A stretch of 64,000 nt of DNA from Verrucomicrobium sp. BvORR034 (lineage in GTDB: Bacteria; Verrucomicrobiota; Verrucomicrobiia; Verrucomicrobiales; Verrucomicrobiaceae), in NCBI RefSeq assembly GCF_000739635.1, contig NZ_BATQ01000166.1, forward strand, positions 1 through 64,000, read 5' to 3'. Below, in pieces: positions 1,757-11,389 of this stretch. The notes under the pieces were generated by a model. The model searched no databases and was not told the DNA's origin. It saw nothing but the letters and a program-made list of their open reading frames with translations. How positions within the stretch are numbered: position 1 is the stretch's first letter; the number at the start of each line of letters is the position of its first letter. The translations under genes were made by a program, and so were the position numbers.

Positions 1757-4201
1757 TCAGTCGAGGTACAGAAATTCATTGAGCCGGAACAGACTGCGCA
1801 GGAGGCTGGACCAGGCCATCGTCTCGGCCTGTTCACTGTCTCCCAAAGTCTGGCGCACCGATGCCAGGTGTTCCTGAAGCATCTGGGTTTCGGCCTCGTC
1901 GGGTTCGCGGGCAAACAGGCTGGTGTAGAGCTGACGCAGACGGGCCTCTTCCGACCCACCCTCCTCTTTCAGCAGGGCTTTGGCCAGCCGGTCAGCCTGC
2001 TCATGAACGAACTTGTCATTCACAAAAAAGAGGGCCTGCAACGCCGTCACCGAACGATCCCGCGTGCTGGTGCAAACATTCGGATCCGGCCCATCAAAGG
2101 TCTGCAGATACGGCTTCGCAGTGAGCCGCTTGGTCATCTGGTACACGCTCCGTTTGTTGCTTGGGTAGTCGCTCTTGAACGGATGGTGCTGCGTGTAGTC
2201 CCACCTGGCTGTCGGCGGCATCGCGTAGGGTTGGTGCTGCGGGGCAAGGTCCAGACCACCACTGACAAACAAAAGCGTATCACGGAGCGATTCCGCATCC
2301 AGACGTTGCCGCCCAAACTTCCAGTACAGGCGGTTGCCGGGATCACTGGCCACATTGTCCTCCGTGTCCTGGCTGGAGAGCTGGTACGCCCGCGAGGTCA
2401 TGATGAGGCGGTGTAGTTGTTTCATGGACCACCCGCTGCGCATAAACTCCGCCGCCAGCCAGTCCAGCAACTCGGGATGGGTGGGGGCCTCCCCGCGCAG
2501 GCCAAAGTCACTGGTGCTGGGGACCAGCCCGGTGCCAAAGTGCCGCTGCCAGATGCGGTTCACGATGACCCGTGCCGTCAGCGGGTTCTGCTCAGCTGCC
2601 ACCCACTGGGCGAGCTGCAACCGACCACTGCCCGCCTGCGTCTCCACCGGCAGGGCCGCGCCACCCAGAATCTCCAGGAACTTTCTGGGCACTTCCGCAC
2701 CCAGACGGTCCGGCTCGCCTTTGATCTGGATCCGGGCGTTCTGGGGTTTCCCTTCCTGCACGGCATACGCGGCGGGCAGCACCGGAAGTTGTTTCAAATA
2801 ATCCGCGAGAGCCTCGCCGGCCTTTCGCGCCTGGAACAGCAGCCCGTCCAGCTCCCCTTTCTTCCGCCGTTGCTCCTCCAGAGTCCGCTCTTTTTCCAGG
2901 GCGGCATTCTCGATCTTCAGCTTTTCGCACCGGGCCAGCAGGGTCTCCAGTTCCACCGTCAGCCGGTCTTTTTCTGCCTGATAGGGGGCCATGGACTCAG
3001 CCACCTCCAGCTCTGGAATCAGCGGCACAAAATCCCGCTGCGCCTTGAAGAGTTCAAGCCCCGGGAATGGGTACTGGGTGCTCGCGAAGATGCCGTAGAG
3101 CCCATAGTAGTCCCGCGTGGAAACGGGATCAAACTTGTGATCATGGCAGCGGGCGCAGCTCAGGGTGAGCCCCAACAGGGTGCGCCCCATGTTGTCGATC
3201 GTGTCCTCAATGGTAAGATGCCAGGGATAACGCTCCACCAGCGAGCCAAACCGCCGCGCCATCGCCAGGTATCCGGTGGCGATGTTCAATCGGTTGCGTT
3301 CCTCCTGGCTCCCGGCAGGCAGCAAGTCACCAGCAATCTGTTCGGTGATAAACCGGTTGTACGGCACGTCCGAGTTCAAGGAATCAATAATATACTGGCG
3401 GTACAGATAGGCCTGCGGGATCGGGTAGTCGGAGTTGTCCCCGGCCGTGTCAGCATAGCGTACCCAGTCCATCCAATGCCGCCCCCAGCGCTCTCCATAG
3501 CGGGGGCTTTCCAGCAGACGATTCACCAGGGCCACCATCGCGGCTTCCCGCCCCTCTGGTCGAGAGAAGGACTGAACAAACTGCTCCACCTCCAACGTCG
3601 TTGGTGGAAGCCCGGTCAGATCATAGGTGGCGCGACGGATCAATGTCCGGGCGTCCGCATCGGGAGAAGCTTCCAGGCCTGCGGCCTCACGTCGCGACTG
3701 CAGGAACCGGTCCACTGGCGTTAACGGCCAATCTTGATCCTTGACCTCCGGCACCACTGGATGCGACAAAGGCTGGAAAGACCAATGCTTGCTGGCGGCG
3801 ACTTTGGCCGGCTCTGCGGCACCGGGACTGTCTGGCCAGATTGCCCCTGCAGCGATCCAGGTACGGAGCACCTCGACTTCCTGGATAGTCAGCCGCTCCC
3901 CTTTCGGCGGCATCTGCTCATCCTTGTGGGCGGATGACACCCGTTTGAGCAAGGCACTTTCCTCGACATTGCCCGGAACGATGGCGTGGGCTCCGGAGTC
4001 GGCCTGGGCAAATGCCCCCTGCTTGTGATCGTAGCGCAAGCCGCCGTTGCTCTCTTCAGGTCCATGGCACTTCACGCAGTGACGCTGCAGAATGGGCTGC
4101 ACATCCCGTGCAAAGTCCACCTCCGAGGCCGCAAACATCTGGCTCCACCCTGTGAACAGGGCGACCGGTAGCAACACACAAAACTGCCACCAACCAATCA
4201 T
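1757..4201 (-). CDS. PSD1 / DUF1549 / DUF1553 haem-binding protein
   Basis: 814 residues with an N-terminal signal peptide (about residues 1-25). A planctomycete-type cytochrome c domain follows, with the haem motif CVKCH at about residues 42-46. DUF1549 comes next (SPRYGERWGRHWMDWVRYAD and a second haem-like CARCHDHKFDP), then a charged coiled-coil stretch of about 60 residues (QAEKDRLTVELETLLARCEK onwards). DUF1553 closes the protein (NPLTARVIVNRIWQRHFG and GWSMKQLHRLIMTSRAYQ). The family is envelope-located and typical of Planctomycetota/Verrucomicrobiota; its biochemical role is unproven. The start codon overlaps the stop of the GntR gene by four bases (ATGA), so the two are probably translationally coupled. 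The DUF1501 gene follows directly and the pair is expected to work together. Confidence 0.9.
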   Translation of the reverse strand: MIGWWQFCVLLPVALFTGWSQMFAASEVDFARDVQPILQRHCVKCHGPEESNGGLRYDHKQGAFAQADSGAHAIVPGNVEESALLKRVSSAHKDEQMPPKGERLTIQEVEVLRTWIAAGAIWPDSPGAAEPAKVAASKHWSFQPLSHPVVPEVKDQDWPLTPVDRFLQSRREAAGLEASPDADARTLIRRATYDLTGLPPTTLEVEQFVQSFSRPEGREAAMVALVNRLLESPRYGERWGRHWMDWVRYADTAGDNSDYPIPQAYLYRQYIIDSLNSDVPYNRFITEQIAGDLLPAGSQEERNRLNIATGYLAMARRFGSLVERYPWHLTIEDTIDNMGRTLLGLTLSCARCHDHKFDPVSTRDYYGLYGIFASTQYPFPGLELFKAQRDFVPLIPELEVAESMAPYQAEKDRLTVELETLLARCEKLKIENAALEKERTLEEQRRKKGELDGLLFQARKAGEALADYLKQLPVLPAAYAVQEGKPQNARIQIKGEPDRLGAEVPRKFLEILGGAALPVETQAGSGRLQLAQWVAAEQNPLTARVIVNRIWQRHFGTGLVPSTSDFGLRGEAPTHPELLDWLAAEFMRSGWSMKQLHRLIMTSRAYQLSSQDTEDNVASDPGNRLYWKFGRQRLDAESLRDTLLFVSGGLDLAPQHQPYAMPPTARWDYTQHHPFKSDYPSNKRSVYQMTKRLTAKPYLQTFDGPDPNVCTSTRDRSVTALQALFFVNDKFVHEQADRLAKALLKEEGGSEEARLRQLYTSLFAREPDEAETQMLQEHLASVRQTLGDSEQAETMAWSSLLRSLFRLNEFLYLD

Positions 4202-4863
4202 CGCCGCGCAAAGCGTTCAGGGTTCAGAATGCGACGCTTGCCCGCCTCAAGGTGGGCCGTCATCAGGTCCGCGGCTTGTAGGCCGTCGCCGGCGCAAACA
4301 GCCTCCACAATGCCCACATGCTCCTCCACGCTCTCCGCCGGACGGGTGCGGTCCGTGTCCGTGACACGGAGGATCACCTGGTGAATTTTGTCGCGCAGCC
4401 GTTCCATGGTGGAGATGATCTCCCGGTTGTTGAGGAACGAGCATAACAGGTAGTGCATCTGCTCGTCGAGATGCATGAGCTTCACGAGATCATCTGCCTC
4501 AAGGGCGACCTTTTGCTGGGCGATGTTCTCCCGCAGCTTTGTCTCCTGCTCCAGCGAGAGCCTCCCAGCCATCCGGCGCACCACCCAGGCCTCGATGGCC
4601 TCCCGCAGCTCATAGTGATCGACAATGTCGTCCACACTCATGCCACGCACCACAATCCCCTGCTGGGCCGAGATGGTCACAAACCCCTCGGACTCCAGAC
4701 GCTCCAGCGCCACGTGAATAGGCGTCTTGCTCATGCCAAACTGAATCGCAAGCTGCCGTTCCGACAGGAAGGTGCCGGGTGGGAACTCTCCCGACGCGAT
4801 GAGTCGGCGAAGTTCGGCATAGGCCCGGGATTGGAGCCGGGAGGGCGGTGCGGAGTCAGGCAT
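4198..4863 (-). CDS. GntR family regulator, FCD subfamily
   Basis: 221 residues from the ATG at 4863. A longer open frame reaches 4986 but would overlap the upstream gene and add a non-homologous tail. Residues about 8-75 form the GntR winged helix (AYAELRRLIASGEFPPG, LSERQLAIQFGMSKTPIHVAL, LESEGFV). The C-terminal FCD domain keeps its metal-site pattern: D-x3-H in LDEQMHYLL, H in EEHVGIVEAV and H in TAHLEAGKR. FCD regulators sense small carboxylates or sugar acids and usually repress neighbouring catabolic genes. The four-base overlap with the PSD1 gene suggests that it controls the PSD1-DUF1501 pair; this is inference. Confidence 0.9.
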   Translation of the reverse strand: MPDSAPPSRLQSRAYAELRRLIASGEFPPGTFLSERQLAIQFGMSKTPIHVALERLESEGFVTISAQQGIVVRGMSVDDIVDHYELREAIEAWVVRRMAGRLSLEQETKLRENIAQQKVALEADDLVKLMHLDEQMHYLLCSFLNNREIISTMERLRDKIHQVILRVTDTDRTRPAESVEEHVGIVEAVCAGDGLQAADLMTAHLEAGKRRILNPERFARR

Positions 4864-9239: not shown

Positions 9240-9521
9240 ATGGAGTTTGACTGGATAGACGTCCCTTTCGACCTGACCACGCTGCCTCCCAAGGATATCG
9301 AGGAGTCTTTCGAAGACCCTTTTGCCCTAAAACTTCTGCCCGACGGTGAGAGCGAAGATGTCCGCGCAGCGCGTTACTTTTCCCTCGGCAAGTCCCTCTC
9401 CGGGCGGGGAATTTTCAGCGTCTTCTGGACGGACGGCAAGCGCTACCGAGTGATCCTCTCCCGTCCCATGAGCCCCGAAGAAGAACACTTCTACGAGCGC
9501 AAGAAGTCCGAAGATCTCTAG
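9240..9521 (+). CDS. BrnT-like toxin of a type II toxin-antitoxin pair
   Basis: 93 residues. The pattern fits BrnT (RelE/ParE-fold ribonuclease toxins): an N-terminal FDW strand, EESFEDPFALKLLPD, then RYFSLGKSLSGRGIFSVFWT and YRVILSRPMSPEEEHFYER. In known BrnTA modules the toxin is encoded first and the antitoxin follows, as here with a 45-base gap. The family inhibits translation by RNA cleavage; activity in this protein is inferred. The N-terminal half is more divergent than usual, so a degenerate or neofunctionalised toxin is possible. Confidence 0.72.
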   Translation: MEFDWIDVPFDLTTLPPKDIEESFEDPFALKLLPDGESEDVRAARYFSLGKSLSGRGIFSVFWTDGKRYRVILSRPMSPEEEHFYERKKSEDL

Positions 9522-9566
9522 TTCCTCTCCTCCCTCCCCCATCCGGCATCCCTGAACTCCCCCCAC

Positions 9567-9836
9567 ATGAAATTGATCCGCACCTGGAGTGAAATGCCTC
9601 ATTTTGAGAATGAGGAGGAGGAAGCCAAGTTCTGGATGGTGCACCAGCTGGACGCCCGGCTCATGCAGACCTCCATGCACCGTCCTGACGTGCGTGAGTC
9701 CACCACCATCACCCTGCGCTTTGATCCCCGCATGCTCTCCCGCATCAAGCGCATCGCGCGCCGGCGGTACCTGAACTACCAGAGCATGATCAAGCAGTGG
9801 CTGAGCGAGCGGATGGAGCAGGAATTGAAGGATTAG
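9567..9836 (+). CDS. CopG/BrnA-type antitoxin
   Basis: 89 residues. The N-terminal acidic block HFENEEEEAKFWMVHQLD is typical of the CopG antitoxins paired with BrnT. The C-terminal ribbon-helix-helix is clear: STTITLRFDPRMLSRIKRIA as strand plus helix, then YLNYQSMIKQWLSERM. It should dimerise, neutralise the upstream toxin and repress the pair. A RAYT transposase locus begins about 55 bases downstream. Confidence 0.82.
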   Translation: MKLIRTWSEMPHFENEEEEAKFWMVHQLDARLMQTSMHRPDVRESTTITLRFDPRMLSRIKRIARRRYLNYQSMIKQWLSERMEQELKD

Positions 9837-9881
9837 GCTGGGCGGCGACTGAGGCGACATAGCCTTTTGCAGGTCGCAACA

Positions 9882-9936
9882 CCCCAGTCCAAGGAGCGGC
9901 GGTTTGTGCTTGCACAACCGCCGAGGTTAACGGAGG
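9882..9936 (+). repeat. REP palindrome copy 1
   Basis: The hairpin at 9897-9923 has arms CGGCGGTTTGTGC and GCACAACCGCCG, a 12-bp stem with one bulged T. The tetranucleotide GGAG (9893-9896) abuts its 5' foot. Conserved flanks are CCCC-A-GTCCAA upstream and GGT-AACGGAGG downstream. A bulged stem with a GTAG/GGAG foot is the hallmark of REPs recognised by RAYT transposases. It is oriented with, and upstream of, the RAYT gene. Confidence 0.9.
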
Positions 9937-10020
9937 AGAGAAACGAATGCGGACTAGCGACGCGACGACTCCGGTTGACGGCAAGTTTGCCATCCGCGCT
10001 GACATTTTGCGATCTTGCCC

Positions 10021-10662
10021 ATGGACGAGGTGTCGTTCAGATTTTTCAATCCGTTTGCGGCCACATTAGAAACGAGAAACCGACTCCACCACTGGGAACA
10101 AGACGGGACTCTCTATTTCGTCACCTTCCGGCTCGCCGACTCGATCCCAGCGGATGTTTTGCATGCCTGGAAATCGGAACGCAACCTATGGTTGGCTGAT
10201 CATCCAAAGCCCTGGAGTCCAGCGCTTGAGAAAGAATACCACCAACGTTTTTCAGGGTGCATCGAACGCTGGCTGGATGCTGGCCACGGATCCTGTGTGT
10301 TAAGAGGAGAATCGGCGCGTGCGGAAGTGATGAACGCCCTCCTCCACTTTGACGGGACTCGCTGCCGGATGGTCTCTTGTATCGTGATGCCGAATCATGT
10401 TCATGCCTTGTTCGTCCTCAATCCGGATTGGAACCTCACGACCCTCATTCACTCGTGGAAACGTCACTCGGCGCAAAAGATCAACCCGCTGTTGGGTCGA
10501 GCCGGGAGTCTTTGGCAAAAGGACTATTTCGACCGGATGATACGAGACGGCCACCATTTTGGAAATTGCATCAAGTACATTCGCCGCAACCCGACGAAGG
10601 CCAAGCTTCCTGTCTCGGACTTCACGCTCTTTGAAAGCGAACTGGCCAAGACGGTTGAGTAG
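10021..10662 (+). CDS. REP-associated tyrosine transposase (RAYT, Y1/HUH family)
   Basis: 213 residues from the ATG at 10021; an in-frame TTG lies two codons upstream. It belongs to the IS200-like Y1 transposases, RAYT branch. Evidence is YFVTFRLADS near residue 30, the HUH metal motif in VMPNHVHAL (His126-x-His128) and the C-terminal block SLWQKDYFDRMIRD, then NCIKYIRRNPTKAK with the likely nucleophile Tyr186. RAYTs nick and join single-stranded REP DNA. Both neighbours carry matching REPs, the upstream one with a GGAG foot. The frame is intact and all catalytic residues are present, so it is probably active. Confidence 0.92.
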   Translation: MDEVSFRFFNPFAATLETRNRLHHWEQDGTLYFVTFRLADSIPADVLHAWKSERNLWLADHPKPWSPALEKEYHQRFSGCIERWLDAGHGSCVLRGESARAEVMNALLHFDGTRCRMVSCIVMPNHVHALFVLNPDWNLTTLIHSWKRHSAQKINPLLGRAGSLWQKDYFDRMIRDGHHFGNCIKYIRRNPTKAKLPVSDFTLFESELAKTVE

Positions 10663-10708
10663 TTTGCCAACGGGGTCTCAACACATATCCCATCACCACC
10701 ACCCATTT

Positions 10709-10749
10709 CCTCCGTTGACCCCCGGCGGTTGTGCAAGCACAAACCGCCG
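10709..10749 (-). repeat. REP palindrome copy 2 (inverted)
   Basis: The 27-base bulged palindrome of copy 1 recurs on the opposite strand at 10723-10749, about 60 bases after the RAYT stop. The GGTCAACGGAGG flank is kept, but the GGAG foot and GTCCAA flank are lost (GTGGG instead), so this copy may not be a good substrate. Confidence 0.88.
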
Positions 10750-10914
10750 CCCACAACGAGCAACGTCCTCGGGGATGCATCAGCCTTTTGTTAACTCATC
10801 GAACTAGCCTCATCCCTCATCCGTGTCCAGTCTCGCAATTCTCGGCACCCGCCATAGTTCCATAGAATCCCGCAATCCAGCAGGGGTGCCCTTCGACGAC
10901 AACACTTCACAACT

Positions 10915-10968
10915 CCCCTGTCCAAGGAGCGGCGGTTTGTGCTTGCACAACCGCCGGGGTGACCGGAG
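10915..10968 (+). repeat. REP palindrome copy 3
   Basis: The palindrome at 10930-10956 is identical to copy 1, with GGAG at 10926-10929 and CCCC-T-GTCCAA before it. It lies downstream of the minus-strand RAYT remnant and points towards it. Confidence 0.9.
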
Positions 10969-11280
10969 CGCAAAAGGGCTACATGATGACATGGAACCCT
11001 ATGTTCCCAGACAACCACTGGTCAATCCACGGTTTTCGCGATCTCGTTTTCATAGAGGGGCGAACCCTGATGAGCCCAATCCTGCTTTTCCGGGATTGCG
11101 CCGAATGCACCGGATACACTTTTCAAAATGGCAGCCATCACGCACTTCGTCCATGGCCCTTAGTCGCACCGGTTCCATTCAATGCCTGAGATTCCTTCAA
11201 CGTGACCATTGCATCAAGCGCTCCAATCCGCCGACCTCTTCGTTGACCCCGGCGGTTGTGCAAGCACAAACCGCCGCTCC
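10926..11280 (-). mobile_element. REP-flanked, internally deleted RAYT unit
   Basis: This 355-base unit repeats the REPtron layout in the opposite direction: REP copy 4, RAYT remnant, inverted REP copy 3. Both REPs keep the GGAG foot and a perfect core. It looks like a non-autonomous, MITE-like derivative that the neighbouring RAYT could act on in trans; this is inference from the layout. Confidence 0.65.
11022..11154 (-). pseudogene. RAYT remnant with internal deletion and frameshift
   Basis: Read on the minus strand from the ATG at 11154, it gives MDEV, the same first four residues as the intact RAYT. It jumps directly to RDGCHFEKCIRCIRRNPGKAG, which matches the intact C-terminal RDGHHFGNCIKYIRRNPTKAK. 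After about 34 codons a one-base shift is needed to reach YENEIAKTVD and the stop at 11022, matching FESELAKTVE. About 170 internal codons, including the HUH motif, are missing. The catalytic Tyr codon is Cys. It is clearly non-functional as a protein. Confidence 0.82.
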
Positions 11281-11290
11281 TTGGACAGGG
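11238..11290 (-). repeat. REP palindrome copy 4 (inverted)
   Basis: The core palindrome is at 11250-11276 on the minus strand. CTCC at 11277-11280 is the GGAG foot, followed by the complement of GTCCAA and AGGGG. It lies upstream of, and in the same direction as, the RAYT remnant, mirroring copy 1 and the intact gene. Confidence 0.9.
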
Positions 11291-11389
11291 GTCGACCGCA
11301 TGCTTTCATCGCTGGCCTCACCCTACCGTCATCCCAACCCTCTTGCACTCCGCCGCCACGACGCATAGCGTCGAAAAACGCGTTCCACA

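Follow-up and report, generated by a model that had tools for sequence, protein, structure and literature searches.

In the GTAG-tagged TnpA-REP/RAYT systems of Escherichia coli (group 2) and of Stenotrophomonas and Marinomonas (group 3), a single-gene HUH-Y1 enzyme is accompanied by inverted REPs that carry a one-sided tag (PMC2817692, PMC8266576); the hairpins are bulged or perfect, and REPINs or BIMEs are present elsewhere. The REP tags reported in the open-licence literature are GTAG with its degenerations, GTGG, and CGTC (PMC2817692, PMC3733652, PMC6006769). How RAYTs recognize and spread REPs is an open question, in which GTAG has so far been treated as the defining signal. Here, we describe a locus in Verrucomicrobium sp. 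BvORR034, located in a 64,000-nucleotide stretch that was analyzed as a whole (the window), which shares all the above features of the GTAG-tagged systems except the tag itself. The system is a RAYT-REPIN variant in which CAAGGAG takes the place of GTAG.

An intact RAYT gene

The first-pass annotation had called an intact RAYT (REP-associated tyrosine transposase) with its HUH and Tyr residues in place, and the gene bears this out. The open reading frame (10021 to 10662, + strand) encodes 213 amino acids from an ATG, with a TTG at 10015 as a possible alternative start; its HUH motif is PNHVH (126 to 128) and its catalytic residue is Tyr186, both invariant among 13 aligned homologs. In profile searches, the protein matched Y1_Tnp at 34.7 bits, above the curated cutoff of 23, and NCBIfam REP_Tyr_transpos at 69.9 bits, below the curated cutoff of 80. 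The IS200 profile reached only 24.8 bits against the latter score, and 13 of 13 clade members match REP_Tyr_transpos; the kinship is with RAYTs rather than with IS200 transposases. The genome has 15 stretches matching Y1_Tnp, and among those listed the next match to the RAYT is 41% identical. The RAYT, a "domesticated" transposase, is a single gene in this genome, without IS-like self-multiplication.

The best match of the clade profile in the PDB was the TnpA-REP structure 4er8 (E value, 2.2e-5). A phmmer search of the PDB with the single window protein gave no significant match, and an AlphaFold model built from the single sequence had a pLDDT of 38. A guide-site-like motif, WQKDYFDRMIR, occupies residues 165 to 175. 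Its W..DYFDR..RD columns are invariant in the 13-sequence alignment of the clade and align with the guide-contact region of E. coli TnpA-REP (W94, Q95, E100 replaced by D, H101 replaced by R, and R104), the contact residues being taken from PMC6006769.

A dispersed REP family around the gene

Four identical 27-mers, CGGCGGTTTGTGCTTGCACAACCGCCG, lie at 9897 (+), 10723 (−), 10930 (+), and 11250 (−). The first two flank the RAYT gene in inverted orientation, as had been claimed in the first-pass annotation: REP 1 upstream (9897 to 9923, +), with the tag CCAAGGAG at 9889 to 9896 (+), and REP 2 downstream (10723 to 10749, −), where GTTGTGGG stands in place of the tag. REP 3 (10922 to 10956, +; tag CCAAGGAG at 10922 to 10929, palindrome at 10930 to 10956) and REP 4 (11250 to 11284, −; palindrome at 11250 to 11276, tag as CTCCTTGG at 11277 to 11284) form a long inverted pair, 10922 to 11284, downstream of the RAYT and its flanking pair. 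Thus, three window copies have CCAAGGAG immediately 5' of the stem, and the fourth, at 10723 just downstream of the RAYT, is untagged. As single-stranded DNA, the window REPs fold into 8+3 or 7+4 pairs with a 4-nt loop and the single bulged T that had been noted, at −11 to −12 kcal/mol (z about −2.2 to −3.4); the 27-nt hairpin of REP 1 folds at −11.5 kcal/mol (z, −2.7). The four copies are clustered as described, and no further copy of the 27-mer was found in the 64-kb window with up to five substitutions allowed.

In a syntenic comparison with two congeners, the RAYT and its four REPs make up a lineage-specific block (9837 to 11318) between conserved flanks. Upstream, at 9240 to 9836, the block adjoins a gene pair for a BrnT-like toxin (below the Pfam cutoff) and a CopG antitoxin. 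This region is 84 to 93% identical in both congeners, and the pair is therefore an inherited neighbor of the RAYT block.

A genome-wide search for the palindrome had been proposed as a check. In the host genome (G000; 8.58 Mb in 200 contigs), 39 copies were counted at up to three mismatches, compared to none for a reversed (backwards) control pattern, which excludes chance. At 12 places, the copies form inverted pairs with the tags outward, 164 to 171 bp long and mostly 165 bp, i.e., REPINs. Some REPIN partners carry loop insertions (CTTCAAG, CTTGCGCTTG) and are consequently missed by the palindrome pattern. Verrucomicrobium sp. BvORR106 has 31 REPINs, 22 of them exactly 165 bp long. By a rough test, none of the 26 REP loci checked falls within a coding-like open reading frame. 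The palindrome is a dispersed REP family, partly arranged as REPINs.

A CAAGGAG tag tied to the RAYT clade

When 131 REP copies of G000 and BvORR106 are compared, conservation is 97 to 100% at every position of CAAGGAG; the preceding base is C in 74% of the copies, and a pyrimidine stands ahead of that in 90%. The GGAG foot, which the first-pass annotation took to be a tetranucleotide of the kind read by RAYTs, is therefore only the 3' part of YCCAAGGAG, within which the 7-nt CAAGGAG is the conserved tag. Neither GTAG nor GTGG stands 0 to 2 nt 5' of the hairpin; the bases adjoining the stem are GGAG.

The window RAYT and its 20 closest homologs (21 loci) were compared with 34 more distant RAYT loci. 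Tag and hairpin occur together at 17 of the 21 closest loci, on both sides of the gene in 14, and at 1 of the 34 distant ones. Tag plus hairpin is seen 53 times in all at the closest loci, whereas 100 dinucleotide shuffles gave 0.11 on average and never more than 1. A blind k-mer count, in which no tag was assumed, returned AAGGAG as the 6-mer 5' of the hairpins in 15 loci, with 4 for the runner-up. On the RAYT tree, the tag label requires 6 changes, compared to 15.7 for shuffled labels. The hairpins beside homologous RAYTs differ while the CAAGGAG foot is the same (CGGCGATTGGCAATCGCCG, CGGCACTAGCCTAGTGCCG, CGGGACTTGCCAAGTCCCG, GGGCGGTTTTTAACCGCCC, TGATGGCTTCCAGCCATCA, and others, with CAAGGAGCGGGACTTGCCAAGTCCCG as an example from relatives); there are 30 distinct stems, and in 38 of 51 cases no base separates the tag from the stem. 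The CAAGGAG tag is real and tied to the clade of the window RAYT, while the palindromes vary between species. GTAG-tagged hairpins at the closest RAYTs amounted to sporadic matches only, several of them overlapping CAAGGAG hairpins.

These data also bear on whether the palindromes could be ordinary hairpins, terminators or mRNA stabilizers unconnected with the RAYT. Their stable single-strand folds and intergenic sites would suit such a role, but the invariant 7-nt tag on one side only, the inverted pairs at fixed spacing, and the recurrence of this tag beside homologous RAYTs whose palindromes differ make it highly improbable. The terminator reading in particular was rejected, given the lack of a T-run and the one-sided invariant tag.

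A few more distant RAYTs have AAAGGAG in place of CAAGGAG. Two RAYT loci from other families of the phylum (L268, which contains masked N runs, and L280) are flanked by AAAGGAG-tagged ACGGACTTTCCAGTCCGT hairpins, and AAAGGAG is possibly a sister tag. Unusual arrangements were seen at two further loci. In one (L293 1481 to 2375, G013:C5), six CCAAGGAG-tagged CGGGACTTGCCAAGTCCCG units lie within 0.9 kb, all in the same direction. In the other (L115 2011 to 4081, G067:C1), a 48%-identical RAYT at 1981060 lies within two tandem arrays of period 144 bp, built of GC-rich palindromes with the tag GTAAAGGAG; most units also have another tagged palindrome on the opposite strand.

REP copy number and presence of the gene in relatives

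A search of 84,980 species genomes, from which records of the host or of a very near genome may be missing, returned the exact tag-plus-palindrome from a single named organism, BvORR106, in 53 stretches. Within the family, the palindrome is present in 96 copies in BvORR106, 8 in the congener G067 (an assembly of one contig, 8,220,857 bp), and 0 in the other 65 genomes. RAYT homologs are present in 65 of 68 family genomes, the nearest being 57% identical and from another genus. No ortholog of the window RAYT was detected in BvORR106 or G067, where nothing is closer than 44 to 48%, and the syntenic site (CopG antitoxin gene to zinc-ribbon ORF) holds other DNA in both, without RAYT or REPs. With 96 and 8 copies where there is no ortholog, REP number does not track the window RAYT within the genus, contrary to what the first-pass annotation had led us to expect. 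In BvORR106, an ortholog might be hidden in an assembly gap, since several short contigs of this draft have REPs 130 to 300 bp from an end.

Eleven G000 REPIN sites were aligned to the congeners. At 6 or more of the 11, BvORR106 is occupied by a REP or REPIN at the corresponding position; much of the REP family is therefore inherited and predates the split. This, together with the copies in genomes without an ortholog and the missing RAYT at the syntenic site of both relatives, would be explained if the REPs were an old family produced by some other RAYT or transposase, whether lost or different, and the window RAYT were a later arrival among them. We regard this as rather unlikely: the copies immediately on either side of the RAYT match the genome consensus exactly, the nearest relatives of the RAYT combine this tag in their flanks with palindromes of their own, none of the other RAYTs inspected in the genus is flanked by the window palindrome, and the breaks near REPs in BvORR106 leave room for a gene in a gap. 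Nonetheless, because copy number does not track the RAYT in the genus and the syntenic site lacks it, we only infer that the window enzyme made these REPs; of the earlier proposal of a REP family made by this RAYT, the family itself (39 copies, 12 REPINs) stands.

A comparison was also made in a sister genus (48 genomes), in which ACTTGCCAAGT palindromes were counted. Where the best RAYT is flanked by the counted palindrome (five genomes), there are 10 to 35 copies, those beside the gene included, compared to a median of 1 in the remaining 43 genomes (Mann-Whitney P, about 6e-4, for genomes that are phylogenetically non-independent). At least 10 copies were found in 5 of 5 genomes with the matching palindrome and in 5 of 43 others (Fisher P, 1.5e-4, subject to the same non-independence). 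There are exceptions, such as G013, with 76 copies, whose one listed RAYT homolog, of three distant ones, is not flanked by the counted palindrome. Orphan REP populations also exist, then, and REPINs persisting without a RAYT are known from E. coli (PMC8049555).

Site occupancy and outer arms

REPIN occupancy differs between congeners. At one site (C193), the REPIN of G000 is missing in both relatives. At another (C168), BvORR106 has GACGGCTCCTTGGATCC at the position of the G000 REPIN; the opposite strand has ATCCAAGGAGCCGTC, which means that the CCAAGGAG adjoining the REPIN is present in the unoccupied site as well. CCAAGGAG is kept exactly at the G000 junction in one REPIN-free BvORR106 locus. 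The C168 pattern would fit insertion 3' of a tag-like target, as for IS200/IS605 elements, and would equally fit a deletion between GGAG repeats. Lone palindromes with a tag on each side, found in BvORR106 (L208) and G067 (L209) where G000 has a full REPIN (C160 and C187, respectively), are best read as REPINs collapsed by deletion between their inverted halves. Clean empty sites are few owing to the turnover of intergenic spacers; most REPIN sites gave none, and the evidence on target sites comes from one or two loci.

The mobile unit could be larger than the REPIN, either a composite of about 245 to 300 bp with arms (left ...GATTCAAGGTYGTGACGCCAAAGGAT, right ...GGGCAACTTGCTACACAGCTGAGCAAGGCCGGACGCCC) or REPINs nested in an older repeat at its own tag. 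Decayed arms do recur beside many REPINs, the left arm mostly at the side with the interior start ..CCGGAG. At one site (L170), BvORR106 differs from G000 and G067 by arms and REPIN together, and at another, BvORR106 (L213) has the arms and a single CCAAGGAG without a REPIN, where G000 (L049) has one. We nevertheless hold a larger unit to be doubtful, since over the 131 REP copies conservation is at background beyond 5 nt upstream of GGAG, the arms are missing or unrecognizable at many sites, and no other unit is nearly as conserved as the 165-bp core.

At L227 to L234, L142, L150, and L162, decayed outer arms lie upstream of the REP tags and may have outer inverted ends, GTCAGGTTAA...TTTAACCTGAC; they are either an older nested repeat or part of a larger composite element. 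As a separate abundant repeat, the arms were rejected: strict copies number 1 in G000 and 8 in BvORR106, and 7 of these 9 have a full REP, the two without being L230 and L226, which has a truncated REP start. The flanks of L038, L046, and L025 (query parts 881 to 1033, 2943 to 3083, and 4690 to 4811) contain at least three more families of dispersed intergenic repeats, with numerous copies in G000, BvORR106, and G067.

Proposed mechanism

Taken as a whole, the data make it probable that the window locus is a REPtron whose RAYT (TnpA-REP) recognizes the tagged single-stranded hairpin, nicks DNA with Tyr186, and spreads REPINs. Single-stranded DNA binding, tag-guided nicking, and mobilization by the window RAYT are steps that we infer on the model of E. 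coli and group 3 TnpA-REP biochemistry (PMC8266576). Recognition would most likely be of the tag-bearing single strand (CAAGGAG plus the bulged stem-loop) by the WQ..YFDR..R region, and the nick would most likely fall next to the hairpin. The inverted REP pairs (REPINs of about 165 bp) would then most likely be copied or moved into intergenic DNA at a low rate. The last two bases of the tag, AG, which are common to GGAG and GTAG, would select a CT cleavage site; in REPINs, the second hairpin is followed immediately on its 3' side by a CT (..CCGCCGCTCCTTGG).

It is conceivable, if speculative, that REPs with CAAGGAG form a superfamily of their own, the third after those of GTAG and CGTC, in which the element fixed for recognition by the clade is the tag rather than the palindrome, cleavage site and guide are combined in one contiguous 7-mer, and REPINs insert immediately 3' of a preexisting CAAGGAG. 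This reading concerns the clade of RAYTs found in the Verrucomicrobium family. Among the REPs of Pseudomonas and Xanthomonas, some have GTAGGAGCGG or GTGGGAGCGG (PMC2817692), which resemble CAAGGAGCGG, and CAAGGAG may thus be a derived tag.

One RAYT clade keeps a longer and different tag constant over at least 30 distinct hairpin stems, so that tag and palindrome are separable as recognition elements. The clade offers matched enzyme/REP sets outside Proteobacteria that could be used for swap experiments, and the genus, with REP populations with and without the RAYT, is a natural contrast for studying REP persistence after RAYT loss.

Comparison with known systems

The first-pass annotation had suggested that this family and its palindrome may be undescribed. 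The CAAGGAG tag and the window palindrome do look so; RAYT/REP systems in Verrucomicrobia are already known, given the GTAG families and REPtrons of Opitutus terrae (PMC3733652). The main text of that paper makes no mention of a CAAGGAG tag, titles and abstracts of the open-licence literature yielded nothing relevant on CAAGGAG with palindromes and transposases, and the RepRanger paper mentions neither Verrucomicrobia nor RAYT. The REP families and REPtrons of Opitutus, and the TIRYT/TIRtrons, likewise comprise verrucomicrobial REPs and RAYT-like genes between inverted repeats, but the Opitutus REPs are tagged GTAG or GTGG and the TIRs share GGGGWSAS or nothing (PMC3733652), unlike CAAGGAG.

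Compared with the GTAG-tagged TnpA-REP enzymes, the window RAYT has the same W-Q...D/E..R guide-contact positions in alignment with 4er8. It differs in a conserved stretch before the HUH motif, HPxPWS..EYHxRFS..WLDxGHGSCxLR, and its tag is CAAGGAG with GGAG abutting the stem instead of GTAG or GTGG. Subclass 2.7 of Quentin et al. (PMC6006769) resembles it in [ND]HVH, WQ, YI[LR].NP, the length of 213 amino acids, and occurrence outside Proteobacteria, a likeness of motifs and length only, by table description; the REPs of that subclass carry GT[AG]G, whereas the window system combines YIRRNP with CAAGGAG. The REPINs of Pseudomonas and E. coli (PMC3116915, PMC8049555) are the same kind of inverted REP pair with a spacer and, in E. 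coli, persist in RAYT-less genomes. In contrast to those, the REPINs described here have another palindrome and another tag, form an asymmetric 165-bp unit, and in many copies carry decayed outer arms.
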